Shown piece by piece: positions 33,797 to 40,555 of a DNA stretch of 64,000 nt. Location: assembly GCF_019285515.1 (NCBI RefSeq), contig NZ_CP079095.1, forward strand, positions 3,070,501 through 3,134,500, read 5' to 3'. This DNA comes from Methylococcus sp. Mc7. Its GTDB lineage: Bacteria > Pseudomonadota > Gammaproteobacteria > Methylococcales > Methylococcaceae. The translations under genes and the position numbers were made by a program. Each line of letters begins with the position of its first letter. Within the stretch, counting starts at the first letter, position 1. A model generated the notes under the pieces. It ran no database searches, was not told the origin of the DNA, and was given only the letters and a program-made list of their open reading frames with translations.

Positions 33797-34273
33797 TTAC
33801 GGCGGGGTCGGGCAGCGTCCCTCCGACCCTTGCGCGGGGAGTGTTTTCCATACCGTGACGATATTCCTGCCGTCCAGGCGCCGATAGCCGACCGAGTCCA
33901 TCATCCTCATCACGAGGAGAATCCCCAGGCCGCCGATGGCGCGTTCCTCCAGCTTGCGGTGTACCTCGGGCGAAGGGGCGGCCGTGGGGTCGAACTCATT
34001 GCCATCATCGGTGACGGTGAGCAGGGCGCGGCCGCCGTGCAGCGAGAGGCGGATGCCGATTTCTCCCCGTTCACCCGCACCGTATCCGTATTTGATGGTA
34101 TTGGTCGCCAGCTCTTCCAGGACGAGATTCAACTGGACCGCGACCGGTTCGGGTACGCCAGAAGCCGAGCAGAACGCTTCCAGTTGCTCCATGACCTCGA
34201 TCAGGGGCTGTATTCCGGCTTCGATGGTGCGCTCGAATTTGGCGCATTGCACGTCGGGCTCGTTCGGTTCCAT
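33797..34273 (-). CDS. RsbW/SpoIIAB-type anti-sigma kinase
   Basis: Soluble GHKL ATP-binding protein of the RsbW type, 158 aa. Such proteins bind a target (often a sigma factor) and phosphorylate a serine on a STAS antagonist. The start at 34273 (MEPNEPDVQC) is chosen because the upstream extension is unlike the family. The N-box reads LVLEELATNTIKYGYG (E54, N58), the G1 box is VTDDGNEFDP (D90, G91) and the G2 box is IGGLGILLVMRMMD, so ATP binding should be intact. It is divergent from the carbonic anhydrase gene (122 bp between starts). A STAS antagonist with the phosphorylatable serine lies 2.6 kb away at 36887, and the permease between them ends in a related domain. The partner is inferred from this arrangement. 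Confidence 0.85.
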   Translation of the reverse strand: MEPNEPDVQCAKFERTIEAGIQPLIEVMEQLEAFCSASGVPEPVAVQLNLVLEELATNTIKYGYGAGERGEIGIRLSLHGGRALLTVTDDGNEFDPTAAPSPEVHRKLEERAIGGLGILLVMRMMDSVGYRRLDGRNIVTVWKTLPAQGSEGRCPTPP

Positions 34274-34395
34274 GGAGGCTCGATGTGGGTTGGGTCGGGA
34301 AAAAACCGGTGTAGAATAACGCCGCTTTTGCGTAAGCGTCTCTCGACGCGGCGGGCCGTGCTCGGGCCGCATCCATCATCTTAAGGACAGGAATC

Positions 34396-35112
34396 GTGCA
34401 AGAGTCTGACATCGAAGGCAAGGATGAGCGTGGGGTCGAATGCTCCTGCTGCGATCTCGAACGTTTCATTTCCGGCGTCAAGGGGTTCAAGGACCGTTTC
34501 TACGGGCGCTACCCGGAACACATGCAGCGGCTCATCGAGCGAGGACAGCGTCCGGTCGCGCTCATGATCGCCTGCAGCGATTCGCGGGTCGATCCGGCTT
34601 TGCTCATGAACGTGGCGCCGGGTGATCTGTTTGTGGTGCGCAACGTCGCCAACCTCGTTCCGCCCTACCATGCCTCGTTCGCCCCTGATGGTGTGGGAGC
34701 GGCGCTGGAATACGCCGTCCGTCATCTCCAAGTGCCCCACATCATCGTCCTCGGGCACGCCCAGTGCGGCGGAATCAAGGCCTTGCTCGACATGGCGACC
34801 GGTGCCAAGTTCGAGAGTGACTTCATCGGCGAGTGGGTCTCGATGGCCATGGACGCCTGCTGGCAGTACGTGCCGGATGCCAGCGGGGAGGGGCTCAGGC
34901 AGGTCTCTCTGGAGCGTCTGAAGGACTATTCCTATCTCGTCGAGCGCGCGGCCATTCAGGGTTCCCTGGGGAATTTGCTGACCTATCCCTGGGTCAGGGA
35001 GGCGGTGGAGCAGGGGCGGCTTTTCCTGCAGGGGTGGTGGTTCGATCTCGAGTCCGGGGATCTGTGGGTCACCAGCGGCGACAATTCGCAGTTCTTGCCC
35101 GTTACCGACTGA
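34396..35112 (+). CDS. beta-carbonic anhydrase
   Basis: Beta-class (Cab/CynT-like) carbonic anhydrase, 238 aa, interconverting CO2 and bicarbonate in the cytoplasm. Zinc ligands are Cys in LMIACSDSRVDP, His and Cys in VLGHAQCGGIKALL, with the Asp-Arg dyad of CSDSR. VAPGDLFVVRNVANLVPPY is the usual dimer-interface segment. It starts with GTG at 34396 after AGGACAGG. The C-terminus ends in a WWFDLESGDLWV motif typical of the plant-type subgroup. It is the first gene of a rightward run and lies 10 bp before a UraA-fold permease, so the two should be co-expressed. This suggests that CO2 or bicarbonate supply is linked to the transporter's job, which is inference. Confidence 0.94.
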   Translation: MQESDIEGKDERGVECSCCDLERFISGVKGFKDRFYGRYPEHMQRLIERGQRPVALMIACSDSRVDPALLMNVAPGDLFVVRNVANLVPPYHASFAPDGVGAALEYAVRHLQVPHIIVLGHAQCGGIKALLDMATGAKFESDFIGEWVSMAMDACWQYVPDASGEGLRQVSLERLKDYSYLVERAAIQGSLGNLLTYPWVREAVEQGRLFLQGWWFDLESGDLWVTSGDNSQFLPVTD

Positions 35113-35122
35113 CTTCTCCCGG

Positions 35123-36850
35123 ATGAAGCGGCCCGAGAACATCGTCTATTGGCTGAACGACAAACCGCCGGCCGCGATCTCCGCGTTCGTCGGCCTGCAG
35201 CAGATGTCCTTTCTCGGCGTCTACCTCGTGATTTCGCCGCTGTTCGTGAGGACCGAAAACATCGGTGACCACGACTCGCAGATTCTGCTGGCGACCACGC
35301 TCCTGGTTTCCGGAATCGGGGTCATGTTGCAGGCGGCCGGGCGCCTCGGCATAGGTTCCGGGTATTTTTGCCCCTTGCAGGCCACTTCGGCGTCGTTCGC
35401 GACCATGGAACTGGCACGGCTTGCCGGGGGCATGGAGCTTGCCTTCGGCATGGTGGGCGTGATGGGAGCGGCGCAGGTCCTGTTCGGCGAGGTGTTCCGG
35501 CGGCTGCGCAGCATATTTTCGGTTGAACTTGCCGGCGTGGCCGTGACCTTGGTCGGACTGGGCCTCGGTTACAAGGGGGTCACCCTGCTCGGCGGCATCG
35601 ATGCGCCCGGTGGGCTGTGGAAGCACGACATCGCCATTGGATTTCTCGCGCTTGCGGTCATGATCGTTTGCAACGTCTGGTCGTCCAGCAGTCTTCGCTT
35701 GTTTTCGGCGTTTGCCGGATTGGCCGCAGGTTTGGCCGTCAGTGTTCTGGTCGACGGCATTCGGCCCGAGGACGCCGAGAACTACAAGGAGACGCCTTTG
35801 CTGGCGCTGCCCCAGTTGCCCACCTTCGGCTGGGCATTCGATCCGGCGCTGATCGTGCCTTACATCGTGCTGGGTCTGGCTTTTTCCCTGCACGGATTCG
35901 GTGCGCTCGCCGCCGCTCAGCGCTTCAACGATTCGGAATGGCGGCATCCCGACATGGCGCAGATATCGCGGGGCATTCGCGCGGAGGGGGTTTCCAACCT
36001 CATTGCCGGACTGGTGAACAGTCTGCCGCTCACTTCCAGCGGCGGTGCCGTCTCCCTGGCAGCGGCCACCGGCTGTACCAGCCGCCATATTGCCTATTGG
36101 CTCGGCGGTATCATGATCGTCCTGGCATTCGTACCGAAGATCACGGTGTTTTGGTCGGTGCTTCCCGTGCCGGTGATCGGGGCGGCGGCGGTATTCCTGT
36201 CATCCTTCACCCTGCTGGCCGGCTTGCAGATGATCGCATCGCGCATGCTCGACAACCGCAAGATTCTCACCGTCGGCATCGGCCTCTTGCTGGGGGTCAG
36301 CCATGAGCCTTTGAAGCACCATTATCGGGAAGAGCTGCCTTCCTTCCTGGTGCCGGTAACCCAGTCGAGCGTCGCTCTCGGCGTGGCCGGTGCGACCTTG
36401 CTGTCGGGTGTGTTCCGCATCGGTGCGGGCACGCGGCGACGGCGGTCGTTCGTCCTCGGAGAATCGCAGCTCGACGACGTCATCGACTACCTGGACCGGC
36501 AGGGGCGGGCCTGGGGCGCCCGCCCGGACGTCGTGCGGCGCAGCGAATACGCGATATGGCAGGCGTTCGAGATCCTCCACGACCACGGTTTCGTGACGCG
36601 GAACGAACAAGGCGAGGGTGTCGTCGAGGTCGAGACCCTGGTCGACGAATTCACGTTCACGGTGATCGCCCGTTACCGCGGCGACGCGATCCCGCTCTCC
36701 ACCCACGCCCCCAGTCATGAGGAGCTTCTGGAGTCCGATACGGGTATCCTGGAGATGGCGGGCTATCTGCTTTACAAGCTCGCGGACAGGGTGCGTTCGC
36801 GCGCGCTTGTCAATGGGATGGCGGAGCTCCGCCTGACCTTTGTCGAATGA
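35123..36850 (+). CDS. SLC23/UraA-fold permease fused to a degenerate RsbW-like domain
   Basis: Membrane transporter of the nucleobase-ascorbate (NCS2/SLC23) fold, 575 aa. About 12-14 hydrophobic segments occupy residues 17-435 (FVGLQQMSFLGVYLVISPLF, FSVELAGVAVTLVGLGLGY, GFLALAVMIVCNVWSSSSL, LVPVTQSSVALGVAGATLLS). The TM1 QH motif of nucleobase carriers is QQ, and the NAT signature QNxGxxxxT is replaced in LPLTSSGGAVSLAAATG, so xanthine or uracil need not be the substrate. After an Arg-rich linker, the last 135 residues have the shape of an RsbW-type GHKL domain (RSEYAIWQAFEILHDHG, then ILEMAGYLLYKLADRV and AELRLTFVE). The N-box Asn and the G1 Asp-x-Gly are missing, so it probably does not bind ATP. 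A carbonic anhydrase lies before it and a STAS protein after it. Confidence 0.75.
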   Translation: MKRPENIVYWLNDKPPAAISAFVGLQQMSFLGVYLVISPLFVRTENIGDHDSQILLATTLLVSGIGVMLQAAGRLGIGSGYFCPLQATSASFATMELARLAGGMELAFGMVGVMGAAQVLFGEVFRRLRSIFSVELAGVAVTLVGLGLGYKGVTLLGGIDAPGGLWKHDIAIGFLALAVMIVCNVWSSSSLRLFSAFAGLAAGLAVSVLVDGIRPEDAENYKETPLLALPQLPTFGWAFDPALIVPYIVLGLAFSLHGFGALAAAQRFNDSEWRHPDMAQISRGIRAEGVSNLIAGLVNSLPLTSSGGAVSLAAATGCTSRHIAYWLGGIMIVLAFVPKITVFWSVLPVPVIGAAAVFLSSFTLLAGLQMIASRMLDNRKILTVGIGLLLGVSHEPLKHHYREELPSFLVPVTQSSVALGVAGATLLSGVFRIGAGTRRRRSFVLGESQLDDVIDYLDRQGRAWGARPDVVRRSEYAIWQAFEILHDHGFVTRNEQGEGVVEVETLVDEFTFTVIARYRGDAIPLSTHAPSHEELLESDTGILEMAGYLLYKLADRVRSRALVNGMAELRLTFVE

Positions 36851-36886
36851 TTCGCTGCATTTCAACTTGTTGCCTGGAGCAAACCG

Positions 36887-37213
36887 ATGCTTGATATCAC
36901 TTGTGAAACCCGGGGCGAGGTGCTGGTCGCGCATCTGAGCGGCCGCATCGACGCCGCCGCGTCCCGCGCCTTCGAGGAACAGGCGCTGGCCTGGCTGGAT
37001 GCGGGAACCCGAAACCTGGTGATGGATCTTTCGTCCATCAGCTACATCAGCAGCGCCGGTTTGCGGGTCTTTCTGCTGATCGCCAAGAAACTCAAGGAGG
37101 CGGAAGGCTCGGTGAAGCTCTGCGCGCTCACGCCGGCGGTCAACGACGTTTTCGAGATCAGCGGATTCAGCCGGCTGTTTTCGATCTATCCGTCGCTGGA
37201 ACATGTGACCTGA
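36887..37213 (+). CDS. STAS-domain anti-anti-sigma factor (RsbV/SpoIIAA type)
   Basis: Single STAS domain, 108 aa. The core is LVAHLSGRIDAAASRAFEEQ, LVMDLSSISYISSAGLRVF and CALTPAVNDVFEISGFSRLF. Ser56 in ISSAGL sits where RsbV and SpoIIAA are phosphorylated by their kinases, so switching is possible. It begins 36 bp after the permease-RsbW fusion and 34 bp before the binding-protein gene. In SulP anion transporters a STAS domain is attached to the permease; here it is a separate protein, while the permease carries an RsbW-like tail. A direct STAS/tail or STAS/kinase (33797) contact is a reasonable inference. Confidence 0.9.
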   Translation: MLDITCETRGEVLVAHLSGRIDAAASRAFEEQALAWLDAGTRNLVMDLSSISYISSAGLRVFLLIAKKLKEAEGSVKLCALTPAVNDVFEISGFSRLFSIYPSLEHVT

Positions 37214-37247
37214 GTCGAATGCCGGCGCGGCCATCCTGGTGTCTGCC

Positions 37248-38534
37248 ATGAAGAAGCTGGTCGTTTCGGGCGCGGCACTCGCGGTCCTGGCCGCTTTGGC
37301 CGGCGCATGGGGCTTGCGCGAGCACGCCCGGCCGCCGATCAGGATAGGCATACTGCATTCGCTGACCGGCGCCATGGCCATCAGCGAGAAATCGGCTGTG
37401 GATGCGGAACTCATGGCCATCGACGAGATCAACGCCGCGGGCGGCCTGCTGGGGCGCCGGGTCGAAGCGGTGGTGGCCGACGGCGCGTCGGACTGGGGGA
37501 CTTTCGCCAGGCAGGCGGGCCGGCTGATCACCGAGGAAAAGGTCAGTGCGATCATCGGCTGCTGGACTTCCGCCTGCCGGAAAAACGTCAAGCCGGTGGT
37601 GGAAAAATATAACCACCTGCTGATCTATCCCATGGCCTATGAAGGCCTGGAGATTTCCAAGAACATCATCTACACGGGGCTGGCCCCTAATCAGCAGATC
37701 GTCCCCGCCCTGAAATGGAGCCTGGACAAGCTGGGCAGGCGCGTTTTCCTGGTGGGTTCGGATTACGTGTGGCCGCACAGCGTCAATGCCGTTCTGCGGG
37801 ATTGGATCAAGGGGCTGGATGGCGAAATCGTGGGCGAGGAATACGTTTTCTTCGGCAGCAGCGACGTCGGCAGCGTGGTCGAGAAAATCGCCGCCCTACG
37901 TCCGAACGTCGTCATCAGCACGATCGCGGGGGAATCGAATCTGGCTTTCTACCGTGTGCTGCGGGAATCCGGTATCCAGGCGAAAGACGTTCCCGTGGTG
38001 TCGCTGTCGGTGGGGGAAGAAGAACTCCGCGACATTCCACCGCGGGACGCCGCCGGCCATTATTCCGCCTGGGGTTATTTTCAGGCGGTCGCCCGCGAGG
38101 AAAACACCTCTTTCGTGAGGCGGTTCCGGGAGCGCTACGGCCAGGACCGGGTGACGGCGGATTTTCCGGAGACGGCCTATTTCAGCATGCTGCTGTGGGC
38201 CGAGGCGGTGCGCGAGGCCGGGTCGCCCGAGGCCGGCCTGGTCAACGAATACATGCTCGGCCAGAGCATCGACGCCCCCGAGGGCGTGGTGACGATCGAT
38301 CCGGCCACGCGCCATACCTGGAGGTCGTTCAACATGGGGCGCATCCTCGACAATGGCCAGGTCGAAATCGTCTGGTCGACGGATCACCCCATCAGGCCCG
38401 TGCCGTATCCCAGGACCCGCAGCAGACGCGAATGGGAAAACTTTCTCAACGAGCTCTACATAGGGTGGAACCACAACTGGGCGAATCCCGTGCCCACCGT
38501 CGCGACCGTCGAAAGAAAGGACAAGCGGCAGTGA
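37248..38534 (+). CDS. urea/amide-type periplasmic substrate-binding protein
   Basis: Periplasmic binding protein of the AmiC/UrtA/FmdD group (type I fold), 428 aa. The start at 37248 (MKKLVVSGAALAVLAAL) gives a signal peptide; a GTG three codons earlier is possible. Diagnostic stretches are IRIGILHSLTGAMAISEKSA, MAIDEINAAGGLLGRRVEAV, IIGCWTSACRKNVKPVVEK, LIYPMAYEGLEISKNIIYTG, VFLVGSDYVWPHSVNAVLRD and AWGYFQAVAREENTSFVRRF. Urea and short-chain amides are the known ligands of close families. No ABC permease or ATPase genes are near, so it probably serves sensing. The downstream chemoreceptor begins inside its last codons (GTGA overlap), so the two are translationally coupled. Confidence 0.88.
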   Translation: MKKLVVSGAALAVLAALAGAWGLREHARPPIRIGILHSLTGAMAISEKSAVDAELMAIDEINAAGGLLGRRVEAVVADGASDWGTFARQAGRLITEEKVSAIIGCWTSACRKNVKPVVEKYNHLLIYPMAYEGLEISKNIIYTGLAPNQQIVPALKWSLDKLGRRVFLVGSDYVWPHSVNAVLRDWIKGLDGEIVGEEYVFFGSSDVGSVVEKIAALRPNVVISTIAGESNLAFYRVLRESGIQAKDVPVVSLSVGEEELRDIPPRDAAGHYSAWGYFQAVAREENTSFVRRFRERYGQDRVTADFPETAYFSMLLWAEAVREAGSPEAGLVNEYMLGQSIDAPEGVVTIDPATRHTWRSFNMGRILDNGQVEIVWSTDHPIRPVPYPRTRSRREWENFLNELYIGWNHNWANPVPTVATVERKDKRQ

Positions 38535-40555
38535 AAATCTCGGCTTCGAGGCTCGGGCAAGGCACCATCGCGGGACGCATACTCCGCTGGTTCCTGATCT
38601 TGGCGACGGTCCCCGCCATCGCATTGACCCTGGTGACCAATTATCTTTCCGCGGAGGCGCTGCGCGACCGCGTCCAGGGCGAGCTGATGTTCATCGCCCT
38701 TTCCAAGGCCGAGGACGTGGAAACCTATGCCTATGAGCGGATAAGGGCGGCGGTGGTGCTGCGCAACGACCAGTATCTGGTCGCGTCGATGAATGCTTTA
38801 CAGAAATACCGGCGCGAACCGGGGCGTTACGCCAGGGAGCAGCAGGCATTCGACCTGGAGGCGCGCCCCGTGCTGGATTTCATGATAGAAAACCTGGCTT
38901 TCAGGAATCTGATCGCCTTCGATCCCCGGGGGGAAGTTCTGTACCAGTCGCATCCGGTCCAGCAGCTCGGGAAGAACCTCTTTGAAGGCCAACTGAAGGA
39001 GTCGCCGCTTGCCAAAGCGGTGCAGCACGCCACGACGCTGCTCGACGCCGAAATCTCCGATTTCGGTGCCTATCCGGGCGGCGACAAGCCGGTGGGATAC
39101 GTCGTGACGCCGCTGTTCGACAGCGGGGGAGGGCTCGTCGCCATCATCGCCTTGCAGTTGGATACGGACGAGATATTTGCGCCGTTCCTGGACTACAGCG
39201 GCCTGGGAGACACCGGTCAGACGGTCGTGGGCCTCTTGGACCACAACGAGATACGCATCATTTCACCACTGAGAAACCAGCCCGATGCGGCGCAGAAGCT
39301 CCGTATCCAGATGGGGGACAGCCAGGGTCAGGGCATCCAGAAGGCCGTGCTGGGGAACCGCGATTTCGGGGAGATTTCCGGAATATTCAAGGAGCCGGTG
39401 CTGGCGAGCTGGACTTACCTGCCGTCTTTCCGGTGGGGACTCTCGGTGCAGATGGACGTGGACGAGGCGCTGGCCCTGGTGGACACCCAGCGTCTGGTCA
39501 ACGGCGGGCTGCTGGCGTTGCTGCTGATTCCCACCGCCCTGGCGGCTTCCCTGGTCTCGCGCACCATCTCGCGCCCCGTGGGCGAAGCCATAGCCGCGGC
39601 AGAGACGGTCGCCGCCGGCGACCTCACGGCGAATCTCGACAGCGACCGGAACGATGAAACGGGCAAACTGCTCCGGGCGTTGGGGCGCATGACGACCTAT
39701 CTCAATTCGCTGGTCGGACAGGTGCAGAAGTCGATCATCGAGCTGGTGTCGACCTCCAACACGCTGACGGCGATGAACCGGGCCCAGGAAGAGGACATAT
39801 CGGCCTTCGGTGCGACCACGAATCAGATCGCGGCGGCTTCGCGGGAAATCTCGGCGACTTCGGAAGAGCTGTTGCGCACGATGGCGGACGTGACCCGCAT
39901 GGCCGGGAGCACGGCCGAGATGGCGAATGCCGGGCGTAACGAGCTGGCCGACATGGAGCAGGTGATGCGCACCCTGGCCGAGTCCACCGGTTCCATCGCC
40001 GACAAGCTCAACGCCATCAGTGCGCGCGCCAGCGACATCTCCACGATGACTACCACCATCAAGCGGGTGGCGGAGCAGACCAATCTTCTGTCGCTCAATG
40101 CCTCGATCGAAGCGGAGAAAGCCGGAGAGTTCGGTCTGGGATTCGCCGTCGTCGCCCGCGAGATCCGCCGCCTCGCGGACCAGACCGCCGTGGCTACGTT
40201 GGACATCGAAACCGTGGTGCGGGAGATGCATGCCGCGGTGTCGGTCGGGGTCATGGAAATGGATAAGTTCTCCGAGCAGGTCCGGCGGGGGGTCGACGAG
40301 ACGAGTCGGATCAGCCAGCAGTTTTCCCGGATCATCGAGCAGGTGGGGGAGCTGACTCCGCGGTTCGATGCCGTGCACGAGGGCATGCGCTCGCAGTCGG
40401 CCGGCGCGCTCCAGATTCGCGACGCCATGGTGGCTTTGTCGGAGAGCGCGATGCAGTCCGCGCAGGCATTGGAAGAAACCAACCGGGCCTCGCAGCGGCT
40501 GGAGACGGCGATCGCCGAGCTCCGCAAGGAAATCGCCATCTTCCGTTTGTCGTGA
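38531..40555 (+). CDS. WspA-like methyl-accepting chemotaxis protein coupled to a binding protein
   Basis: Chemoreceptor of 674 aa starting with GTG at 38531, inside the stop region of the binding-protein gene. TM1 is residues 19-41 (ILRWFLILATVPAIALTLVT). A Cache-type periplasmic domain spans about 42-325 (FRNLIAFDPRGEVLYQSHPV, YVVTPLFDSGGGLVAIIALQ). TM2 is near 328-350, then HAMP (RTISRPVGEAIAAAETVAAG). The signalling tip is [20 protein letters not shown], followed by [20 protein letters not shown] and VREMHAAVSVGVMEMDKFSE, which closely follows WspA. WspA receptors drive a diguanylate cyclase through a dedicated CheA/CheY-like path; none is adjacent here. The start overlap suggests the binding protein is made in proportion to the receptor and may present ligand to it. 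Confidence 0.9.
   Translation: MKISASRLGQGTIAGRILRWFLILATVPAIALTLVTNYLSAEALRDRVQGELMFIALSKAEDVETYAYERIRAAVVLRNDQYLVASMNALQKYRREPGRYAREQQAFDLEARPVLDFMIENLAFRNLIAFDPRGEVLYQSHPVQQLGKNLFEGQLKESPLAKAVQHATTLLDAEISDFGAYPGGDKPVGYVVTPLFDSGGGLVAIIALQLDTDEIFAPFLDYSGLGDTGQTVVGLLDHNEIRIISPLRNQPDAAQKLRIQMGDSQGQGIQKAVLGNRDFGEISGIFKEPVLASWTYLPSFRWGLSVQMDVDEALALVDTQRLVNGGLLALLLIPTALAASLVSRTISRPVGEAIAAAETVAAGDLTANLDSDRNDETGKLLRALGRMTTYLNSLVGQVQKSIIELVSTSNTLTAMNRAQEEDISAFGATTNQIAAASREISATSEELLRTMADVTRMAGSTAEMANAGRNELADMEQVMRTLAESTGSIADKLNAISARASDISTMTTTIKRVAEQTNLLSLNASIEAEKAGEFGLGFAVVAREIRRLADQTAVATLDIETVVREMHAAVSVGVMEMDKFSEQVRRGVDETSRISQQFSRIIEQVGELTPRFDAVHEGMRSQSAGALQIRDAMVALSESAMQSAQALEETNRASQRLETAIAELRKEIAIFRLS

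Follow-up and report, generated by a model that had tools for sequence, protein, structure and literature searches.

A predicted RsbW-like pseudokinase tail on a UraA-fold permease in a conserved Methylococcus locus suggests a transporter-targeted partner switch

In a 64,000-nucleotide stretch of the genome of the methane-oxidizing bacterium Methylococcus sp. Mc7 (hereafter the window; NZ_CP079095.1, positions 3,070,501 to 3,134,500), six neighbouring genes form a real, conserved system that comprises an RsbW-type kinase, a beta-carbonic anhydrase (CA), a UraA-fold permease with an additional C-terminal domain (the tail), a free-standing STAS protein, a UrtA-like binding protein and a chemoreceptor. 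The explanation that best accounts for the whole, which we hold at slightly better than even confidence, is a partner-switching circuit in which the transporter is the target. Computation establishes the domains of these proteins, the fold and degeneracy of the permease tail, the conservation of the neighbourhood, and a chemosensory cluster with a PP2C phosphatase gene that is homologous between genomes and co-occurs with the receptor.

Organization and conservation of the locus

All six genes are intact in the window (33797-40555), which comes from a genome assembled as one contig of 4.00 Mb.

33797..34372, minus strand: RsbW-type serine kinase (HATPase_c_2, PF13581, E 4e-23), divergent from the other five genes
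34396..35112, plus strand: beta-carbonic anhydrase (Pro_CA, PF00484, E 2e-44)
35123-36850, plus strand: permease, whole gene (Xan_ur_permease, PF00860, E 3e-40)
35123..36439, plus strand: permease membrane domain, UraA-fold (PF00860)
36440..36850 (stop codon included), plus strand: permease C-terminal tail, RsbW/SpoIIAB-like probable pseudokinase (structure model, Foldseek and VIA-align matches, profile comparison)
36887..37213, plus strand: free STAS protein, RsbV/SpoIIAA type (PF01740, E 2e-22)
37248..38534, plus strand: UrtA-like periplasmic binding protein (Peripla_BP_5, PF13433, E 5e-157)
38531..40555, plus strand: transmembrane chemoreceptor (HAMP; MCPsignal, E 5e-31; weak dCache match, below cut-off)

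The five co-directional genes are separated by 10 bp (CA to permease), 36 bp (permease to STAS) and 34 bp (STAS to binding protein), and the binding-protein and receptor genes share 4 bp. The most likely start codon of the binding protein is the ATG at 37248, not the GTG at 37239, and the receptor start codon is the GTG at 38531, bearing out the overlap by which an initial annotation of this DNA, made from its letters, had coupled these two genes. The RsbW frame opens at 34372, and conservation between genomes begins well inside it. Judged by the permease, the closest named relatives belong to Methylococcus: the protein is 93% identical in M. capsulatus Texas and 80% identical in a Methylococcus metagenome-assembled genome.

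Across 201 genomes sampled from the order, which we take to be Methylococcales, the tail is present in 24. A full-length membrane domain at ≥50% identity occurs in the same 24 genomes and carries the tail in 24/24, and the other 63 genomes that match the membrane domain do so at ≤30% identity among the matches listed. The permease has CA on its upstream side and STAS on its downstream side in 18 of the 24 tail-positive loci, and because these genomes span two families the order is not a chance arrangement. Its retention, together with the presence of all six genes in intact form, upholds the initial annotation, which had treated the six genes as one system and had staked that view on conservation of gene order. 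The six exceptions are five genomes of genus g12, in which the permease lies apart, and G095, whose contig is 3.6 kb long. Four receptor loci were fetched from g12: those of G083, G099 and G107 have CA, binding protein and receptor divergent from RsbW and Che genes, two of these three loci also showing STAS, and the contig of G087 ends within the binding-protein gene. RsbW is found in 14 of the 24 fetched tail-positive loci, with tblastn matches at the equivalent place in the other five Methylococcus loci.

Tails are rare outside the order, occurring in at least 2 of 368 other genomes sampled from the class and at least 2 of 397 sampled from the phylum, both counts being lower bounds based on the first 10 or 11 candidates scored per genome. 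In two genomes outside the order (G512 and G217), STAS, permease and PP2C genes follow one another in one orientation, and a third (G643) has a permease-RsbW pair with a gene for a receiver-PP2C fusion (REC-PP2C) ~5 kb away.

The permease tail resembles RsbW and lacks its ATP-site residues

Pfam assigns nothing to permease residues 394-575. An AlphaFold2 (AF2) model of the last 136 residues, built with 19 homologues, has a mean predicted local distance difference test score (pLDDT) of 92.6 and a predicted template-modelling score (pTM) of 0.85. All 12 Foldseek matches to this model at E ≤ 0.001 are chains from SpoIIAB, RsbV/RsbW, UsfX/RsfB or SigF/anti-sigma-factor entries. The top 12 rows from VIA-align are made up of the Foldseek-matched entries together with LvrC, SiaB and the RsbW domain of Rv1364c (Z 13.4-10.2; root-mean-square deviation 2.5-3.9 over 102-128 residues), and the next row drops to Z 8.6 and to other GHKL proteins. 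Comparison of profiles points the same way. A profile of 15 tails, with no Pfam-recognized member, matched 12 RsbW sequences at 88.5% (E 2.7e-6, 127 columns), and a profile that included the one Pfam-recognized tail matched at 96.7%, the addition of more distant tails having strengthened the match over that of a first, less diverse set; as a control, the same 15-tail profile matched the STAS family at 0.15% (E 0.4). The lone Pfam-recognized tail was itself a poor match to the tail profile (1.0%). Searched by sequence against the PDB, a single tail found no match and the tail profile found chance matches only.

Five residues, E53, N57, D88, G114 and G116 in the numbering of the aligned window sequence, are invariant in 12/12 RsbW proteins. 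When the N-box helix is read without gaps and residues are paired by eye, the position of the RsbW catalytic Glu is an invariant Gln41 in the tail, and counterparts of the N-box Asn and G1 Asp are, again with pairing by eye, absent in all 19 tails. Because the N-box Glu/Asn and G1 Asp of the neighbouring RsbW have no counterpart in it, the tail, which holds many invariant positions, is probably a pseudokinase; with the fold taken into account, we regard its identity as an RsbW-like pseudokinase as almost certain. Judged from its sequence, it could work at most as a STAS-binding domain and not as a kinase. The initial annotation had already read an RsbW-like domain without ATP-site residues here; AF2, Foldseek and VIA-align confirm the fold, and the alignment confirms the absence of those residues.

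A genome from another family of the order (G004) encodes a PF00860 permease, 25% identical, whose tail Pfam does recognize as HATPase_c_2 (E 2.7e-9, over the cut-off). This gene (L111:3217-5034) retains a TM8 (transmembrane helix 8) Glu and stands head to head with genes for a 410-residue STAS-bearing protein and an ABC transporter. The G004 permease is a natural intermediate and shows, on sequence grounds alone, that permeases of this kind acquired RsbW-type domains.

The STAS protein and RsbW as probable switching partners

The initial annotation pointed to a free STAS protein with a phosphorylatable Ser56, and this also stands: STAS is a separate gene, and Ser56, which we take to be the canonical phosphoserine position of SpoIIAA/RsbV, is invariant in 19/19 aligned STAS proteins. 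The window RsbW keeps the N-box Glu/Asn and the G1 Asp, which are invariant in 12/12 RsbW proteins. Thus, the locus holds both a kinase with intact N-box/G1 residues and a STAS protein with the serine, and PP2C genes accompany it in several relatives but lie elsewhere in the window genome. We conclude that the locus is very probably a partner-switching system. The candidate for its target, which would compete for the switching proteins, is the permease tail.

The STAS gene is in frame with the stop codon of the permease, and read-through would yield the tail, 13 residues and STAS. An AF2 model of this fused read-through product, a single run with unpaired rows, no negative control and global scores only, has a pLDDT of 90.5 and a pTM of 0.77. 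By our estimate, two such folded domains without a fixed relation would give a pTM nearer 0.55 to 0.6, and the model therefore favours a defined arrangement. With this prediction in hand, we consider it reasonably likely that STAS binds the permease tail.

A candidate phosphatase and a probable route from the receptor

The initial annotation named neither a phosphatase nor a route from the receptor to the switch, and candidates for both are present in the window genome and in relatives. The window genome has four matches to PF07228, one of them weak. One of the four is a 390-residue REC-PP2C protein, whose gene is the last of a cluster encoding CheR-TPR, CheA-REC, CheB and REC-PP2C (C1:2,310,380-2,316,848); ~1.9 kb away, on the other strand, lies a GAF-GGDEF gene without a receiver match. 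Six aligned REC-PP2C homologues keep what we take to be the receiver phospho-acceptor region and the Asp/Gly motifs of PP2C.

Several relatives bring such a cluster together with genes of the system. In G003, an RsbW-CheW-CheR-CheA-CheB-REC-PP2C operon is divergent from CA-permease-STAS-UrtA-receptor, and G025 and G064 have an RsbW-headed Che operon that also ends in REC-PP2C, with CheW not detected, divergent from these same five genes. In G083, the RsbW-headed Che/REC-PP2C operon is divergent from CA-STAS-UrtA-receptor, the permease not being there, and in G067 CheR, CheA, CheB and REC-PP2C converge on the receptor. Close homologues of the receptor sensor half (E ≤ 1e-70) were found in 14 of 45 genomes, namely 14/24 tail-positive genomes and 0/21 genomes of the tail-negative comparison set. 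A full-length REC-PP2C homologue at ≥56% identity is present in 13 of these 14 receptor-bearing genomes, the exception being a genome that is 83% complete, a co-occurrence to be read with the genomes being related and the events not independent. Taken together, these arrangements make it probable that the receptor acts through REC-PP2C.

Genomes that lack the receptor have a different input at the permease locus. In G058, a SpoIIE-type PP2C gene directly follows STAS, and in three genomes of a second family (G028, G108 and G188) the following 10 kb hold genes for a binding protein matching PF04392, a hybrid histidine kinase, a GAF-PP2C protein and RsbW. The core is conserved, and the sensor changes between genomes.

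The binding protein scores 451.4 bits against NCBIfam TIGR03407, below the UrtA cut-off of 492.75, and its PDB matches include 8tg1 (E 3e-121) and the urea-binding protein 7s6e (E 1e-92). The binding protein-receptor pair is kept in the fetched receptor-bearing loci. The ten flanking window genes submitted to Pfam are of housekeeping type or lack an assignment, and encode serine hydroxymethyltransferase, NrdR, riboflavin-pathway proteins, PdxJ, Dus and two proteins without assignment; no ABC partner gene is among them, and UrtB, the one Urt partner searched for, has no match in any of the six Methylococcus genomes. These negatives agree with the initial annotation, which described a binding protein without ABC partners. 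Because UrtB is lacking in 6/6 genomes, the binding protein fits a sensor, and a sensory role is its natural reading.

Membrane domain, substrate and carbonic anhydrase

The permease scores 138.6 bits against PF00860 (cut-off 27) and 47.7 bits against the NCBIfam purine/pyrimidine permease model NCS2_1 (cut-off 40); its ncs2 score of 146.9 and pbuX score of 166.6 fall below the cut-offs of 291.8 and 414.15. Pfam matches the permease to Xan_ur_permease alone and leaves Sulfate_transp unmatched, and STAS is a separate gene, so the protein is not a SulP/SLC26 transporter by domain content. In UraA, a TM8 Glu and a TM10 Glu ligate the nucleobase. A study of UapA describes xanthine binding via Glu356 and Gln408 (PMC4837479). 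In our profile alignment, invariant His257 and Gly308 (23/23) occupy the places of the TM8 Glu and the TM10 Gln/Glu of UapA and UraA, and in five distant tail-permeases from outside the order the first position is Lys, Asp or Asn and the second is Ser, Ala or Gly. A tail-less NCS2 protein of G058 (24% identity) was tried as a nucleobase control and set aside, having Asn/Leu at the two positions; because it is not a clean control, the comparison rests on UraA and UapA. Since both nucleobase-ligating residues are replaced, the sequence makes a nucleobase an unlikely substrate. The adjoining CA suggests traffic in bicarbonate or a CO2-linked anion. Bicarbonate is a possible substrate, and to bicarbonate or another small anion we give a somewhat less than even chance.

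We take the window CA to be CA4/MCA1665 of M. capsulatus Bath, from its context and 717-bp gene length and not from a search with the Bath sequence. For the Bath gene, the published report gives a length of 717 bp and describes a CA4 knock-out that grows poorly and was not complemented by CA4 alone, its authors suspecting the downstream permease; it also places CA4 and this permease, MCA1664, in one operon and already proposes a possible bicarbonate role for the two (PMC11423575).

A link to RuBisCO was considered and rejected, RuBisCO being present in 12/24 tail-positive and 12/21 tail-negative genomes. Urease is found in none of the six Methylococcus genomes, in 6/24 tail-positive genomes and in 13/21 tail-negative genomes. 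With no RuBisCO association and no urease in the six Methylococcus genomes, neither RuBisCO supply nor urea use explains the system. The joint lack of urease and UrtB in these six genomes also leaves uptake or use of urea unsupported, a urea-like solute being one of the cargoes suggested in the initial annotation.

Separately, RuBisCO large-subunit matches number two in the window genome (C1:1656464-1657390 and 1730945-1731871) and one in each of the other five Methylococcus genomes. In G188, two tandem CA genes lie upstream of the tail-permease (L037:6667-8210).

A model for control of the permease

We propose the following circuit, in which the phosphorylation steps, STAS-tail binding, the direction of control and the substrate are inferred, with the Rsb and SpoIIA systems as the guide for phosphorylation, docking and gating. 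In unstimulated cells, RsbW would keep STAS phosphorylated on Ser56. Gain or loss of a ligand on the UrtA-like protein would alter the activity of the chemoreceptor and of a Wsp-like CheA, which could then phosphorylate REC-PP2C and thereby cause phosphate to be removed from STAS. Dephosphorylated STAS would dock on the dead RsbW-like tail of the permease, as RsbV does on RsbW, and docking would open or close the permease and change transport. Meanwhile, CA could interconvert CO2 and bicarbonate for, or because of, transport by the permease. That STAS-tail binding alters transport at all is a proposition to which we give a little more than an even chance.

Several observations weigh against this model or loosen its parts. 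The six fetched Methylococcus loci contain no PP2C gene, and in the window genome the PP2C cluster is ~0.79 Mb from the permease. RsbW was not found in the fetched G067 locus despite the Che cluster and receptor there. REC-PP2C homologues at 51-54% identity are carried by six tail-negative genomes of genus g5. The closest one beyond the genus (72%) belongs to G058, a genome without the receptor, where it is part of a Che cluster that includes two different receptor genes; the cluster can therefore serve other inputs or outputs. Adjacency of the permease is not obligatory, as the five g12 genomes have it apart from the other genes, and G861, from outside the order, has two convergent tail-permeases with no match to RsbW, STAS or PP2C in 19.5 kb. 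Finally, a first profile comparison of 19 closely related tails with RsbW was weak (6.9%, E 0.005), because those tails were too similar to one another, and the fused tail-STAS model has the limits given above.

Alternative explanations

The same components would also fit signal flow in the opposite direction. The permease could be a transceptor, a sensor whose conformation sets whether its tail holds STAS or not, with free STAS acting on RsbW and on a downstream target such as a sigma factor; the additional RsbW, STAS and PP2C genes in these genomes could provide cross-talk. However, PP2C, receptor and CheA already make an input branch, no sigma factor appears among the flanking proteins put to Pfam (not every flanking open reading frame was tested), and G512 and G217 group STAS, permease and PP2C without RsbW. 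We consider this direction of flow unlikely. Alternatively, the tail might be the pseudokinase half of a pair with the true RsbW, much as SpoIIAB forms a dimer, and so tether or gate RsbW at the membrane rather than bind STAS. GHKL anti-sigma kinases can dimerize, and the tail retains the overall fold. By contrast, permease and STAS are adjacent in 18/24 loci whereas the position of RsbW varies, and the pTM of the fused model speaks for the STAS contact, which leaves tail-RsbW pairing rather improbable.

The partner-switch and chemosensory proteins could also regulate expression of the CA-permease operon via a transcription factor, with the tail as a minor modulator. Canonical partner switches act on sigma factors (PMC8256260), and in Bath the CA4 transcript increases 2.8-fold within 3 h after CO2 is withdrawn (PMC11423575). 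Against transcriptional control stand the same lack of a sigma-factor gene among the flanking proteins put to Pfam and the fusion of the RsbW-like domain to the permease in 24/24 genomes, and we give it a low probability. Very unlikely, in our judgement, is a standard nucleobase permease whose fused domain has decayed and whose neighbours have nothing to do with it. The PF00860 and NCS2_1 scores over their cut-offs and a tail unseen by Pfam would suit such a protein, as would the annotation of the Bath permease as a xanthine/uracil permease (PMC11423575). Yet both ligating side chains are replaced by residues invariant in 23/23 sequences, the tail has many invariant positions and occurs in all 24 genomes with a close membrane domain, and the neighbourhood is conserved in two families, with echoes beyond the order. 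We retain the partner switch that targets the transporter as the preferred explanation.

Partner-switching genes near other transporters

Some further gene arrangements stand apart from the locus described above. The window genome has a separate STAS-RsbW gene pair (L079:2591-3368), followed after 2.9 kb by a PP2C gene with the same orientation. It also has a second CA-transporter pair, a carbonic anhydrase and a SulP carrier (L080:7324-12026; C1 ~3,750,320-3,755,030), in which the SulP protein has a C-terminal STAS match just under the Pfam cut-off; one methyltransferase gene lies between this pair and genes for REC-PP2C and a 135-residue RsbW-type protein. Partner switching may act on the SulP carrier too. 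An operon for a ~410-residue protein with an N-terminal STAS domain, a BPD_transp_2 permease and an ATPase recurs at L034:996-6993, L043:11643-17637 and L111:234-3227, with an additional ~980-residue protein that has PF04392 binding-protein domain matches in L034 and L043. This ABC operon is near RsbW and PP2C genes in some genomes and is possibly another transporter under partner switching. In G003, a gene for an 829-residue protein with an internal HATPase_c_2 domain directly precedes an MFS transporter gene and is convergent with the receptor (L036:2117-5787).

Relation to known systems

The proposed circuit shares with the Rsb and SpoIIA systems (RsbW-RsbV-RsbU and SpoIIAB-SpoIIAA-SpoIIE) a kinase, a STAS protein with a phosphorylatable Ser and a PP2C phosphatase. 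It differs in that the proposed target is a transporter with a dead kinase-like domain, the input is chemosensory, and no sigma factor is seen at the locus. In Pseudomonas aeruginosa, SiaABCD is a partner switch with a non-sigma output that controls a diguanylate cyclase; the tail has SiaB as one of its structural matches, but in our system this fold forms part of a permease. The membrane fold of SulP/SLC26 transporters is related to the UraA-fold, and BicA-like members resemble our system in having a CA neighbour and in involving STAS. In contrast, STAS is free here and the permease carries the RsbW-like partner. Like the NCS2/NAT permeases (UraA, UapA, PbuX), the permease matches PF00860, and its homology to UraA and UapA is detectable, but its ligating Glu and Gln/Glu are replaced and it has a C-terminal pseudokinase. 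Like the Wsp chemosensory system, the proposed input has CheR-TPR, CheA-REC, CheB and a receptor, although its regulator ends in PP2C and not in GGDEF, and the receptor gene is unlinked in Methylococcus.

The nearest precedent that we found for joining a chemosensory array and a partner switch comes from Nostoc punctiforme, whose Hmp system combines chemotaxis-like hmpA-F with RsbUVW-like HmpU-W and has an HmpV effector described as undefined; the passages on it name no permease or carbonic anhydrase (PMC6495340, PMC8256260). BtrUVW of Bordetella, a partner switch reported to act on type III secretion and after transcription, sets a precedent for control of secretion, and the passage on it names no permease with a kinase-like domain (PMC8256260). 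A literature search found nothing on this circuit or on any permease as the target of a partner switch, which is weak evidence because most subscription journals were outside its scope; PMC12918730 was a chance match. In its parts and its proposed mode of action the circuit is a partner switch, but a membrane carrier fused to a dead kinase takes the place of the usual sigma factor.

Implications

In the literature that we found, partner switches act on sigma factors, type III secretion or undefined effectors. The boldest form of our model remains doubtful: a chemoreceptor array might directly control a UraA-fold permease for bicarbonate or another anion, through REC-PP2C, STAS and the pseudokinase tail and without transcription, in an arrangement that mirrors SulP transporters, and the STAS domains of SulP/SLC26 proteins might descend from, or join, partner switches. 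If true, a partner switch with a transporter as its target would provide a concrete hypothesis for the STAS domain in SulP/SLC26 transporters. For M. capsulatus Bath, the locus gives a testable reason for the failure of CA4 alone to complement the knock-out (PMC11423575). More broadly, a transporter-targeted switch would, if true, be a fast, reversible, post-translational valve that ties chemosensory arrays to metabolism.

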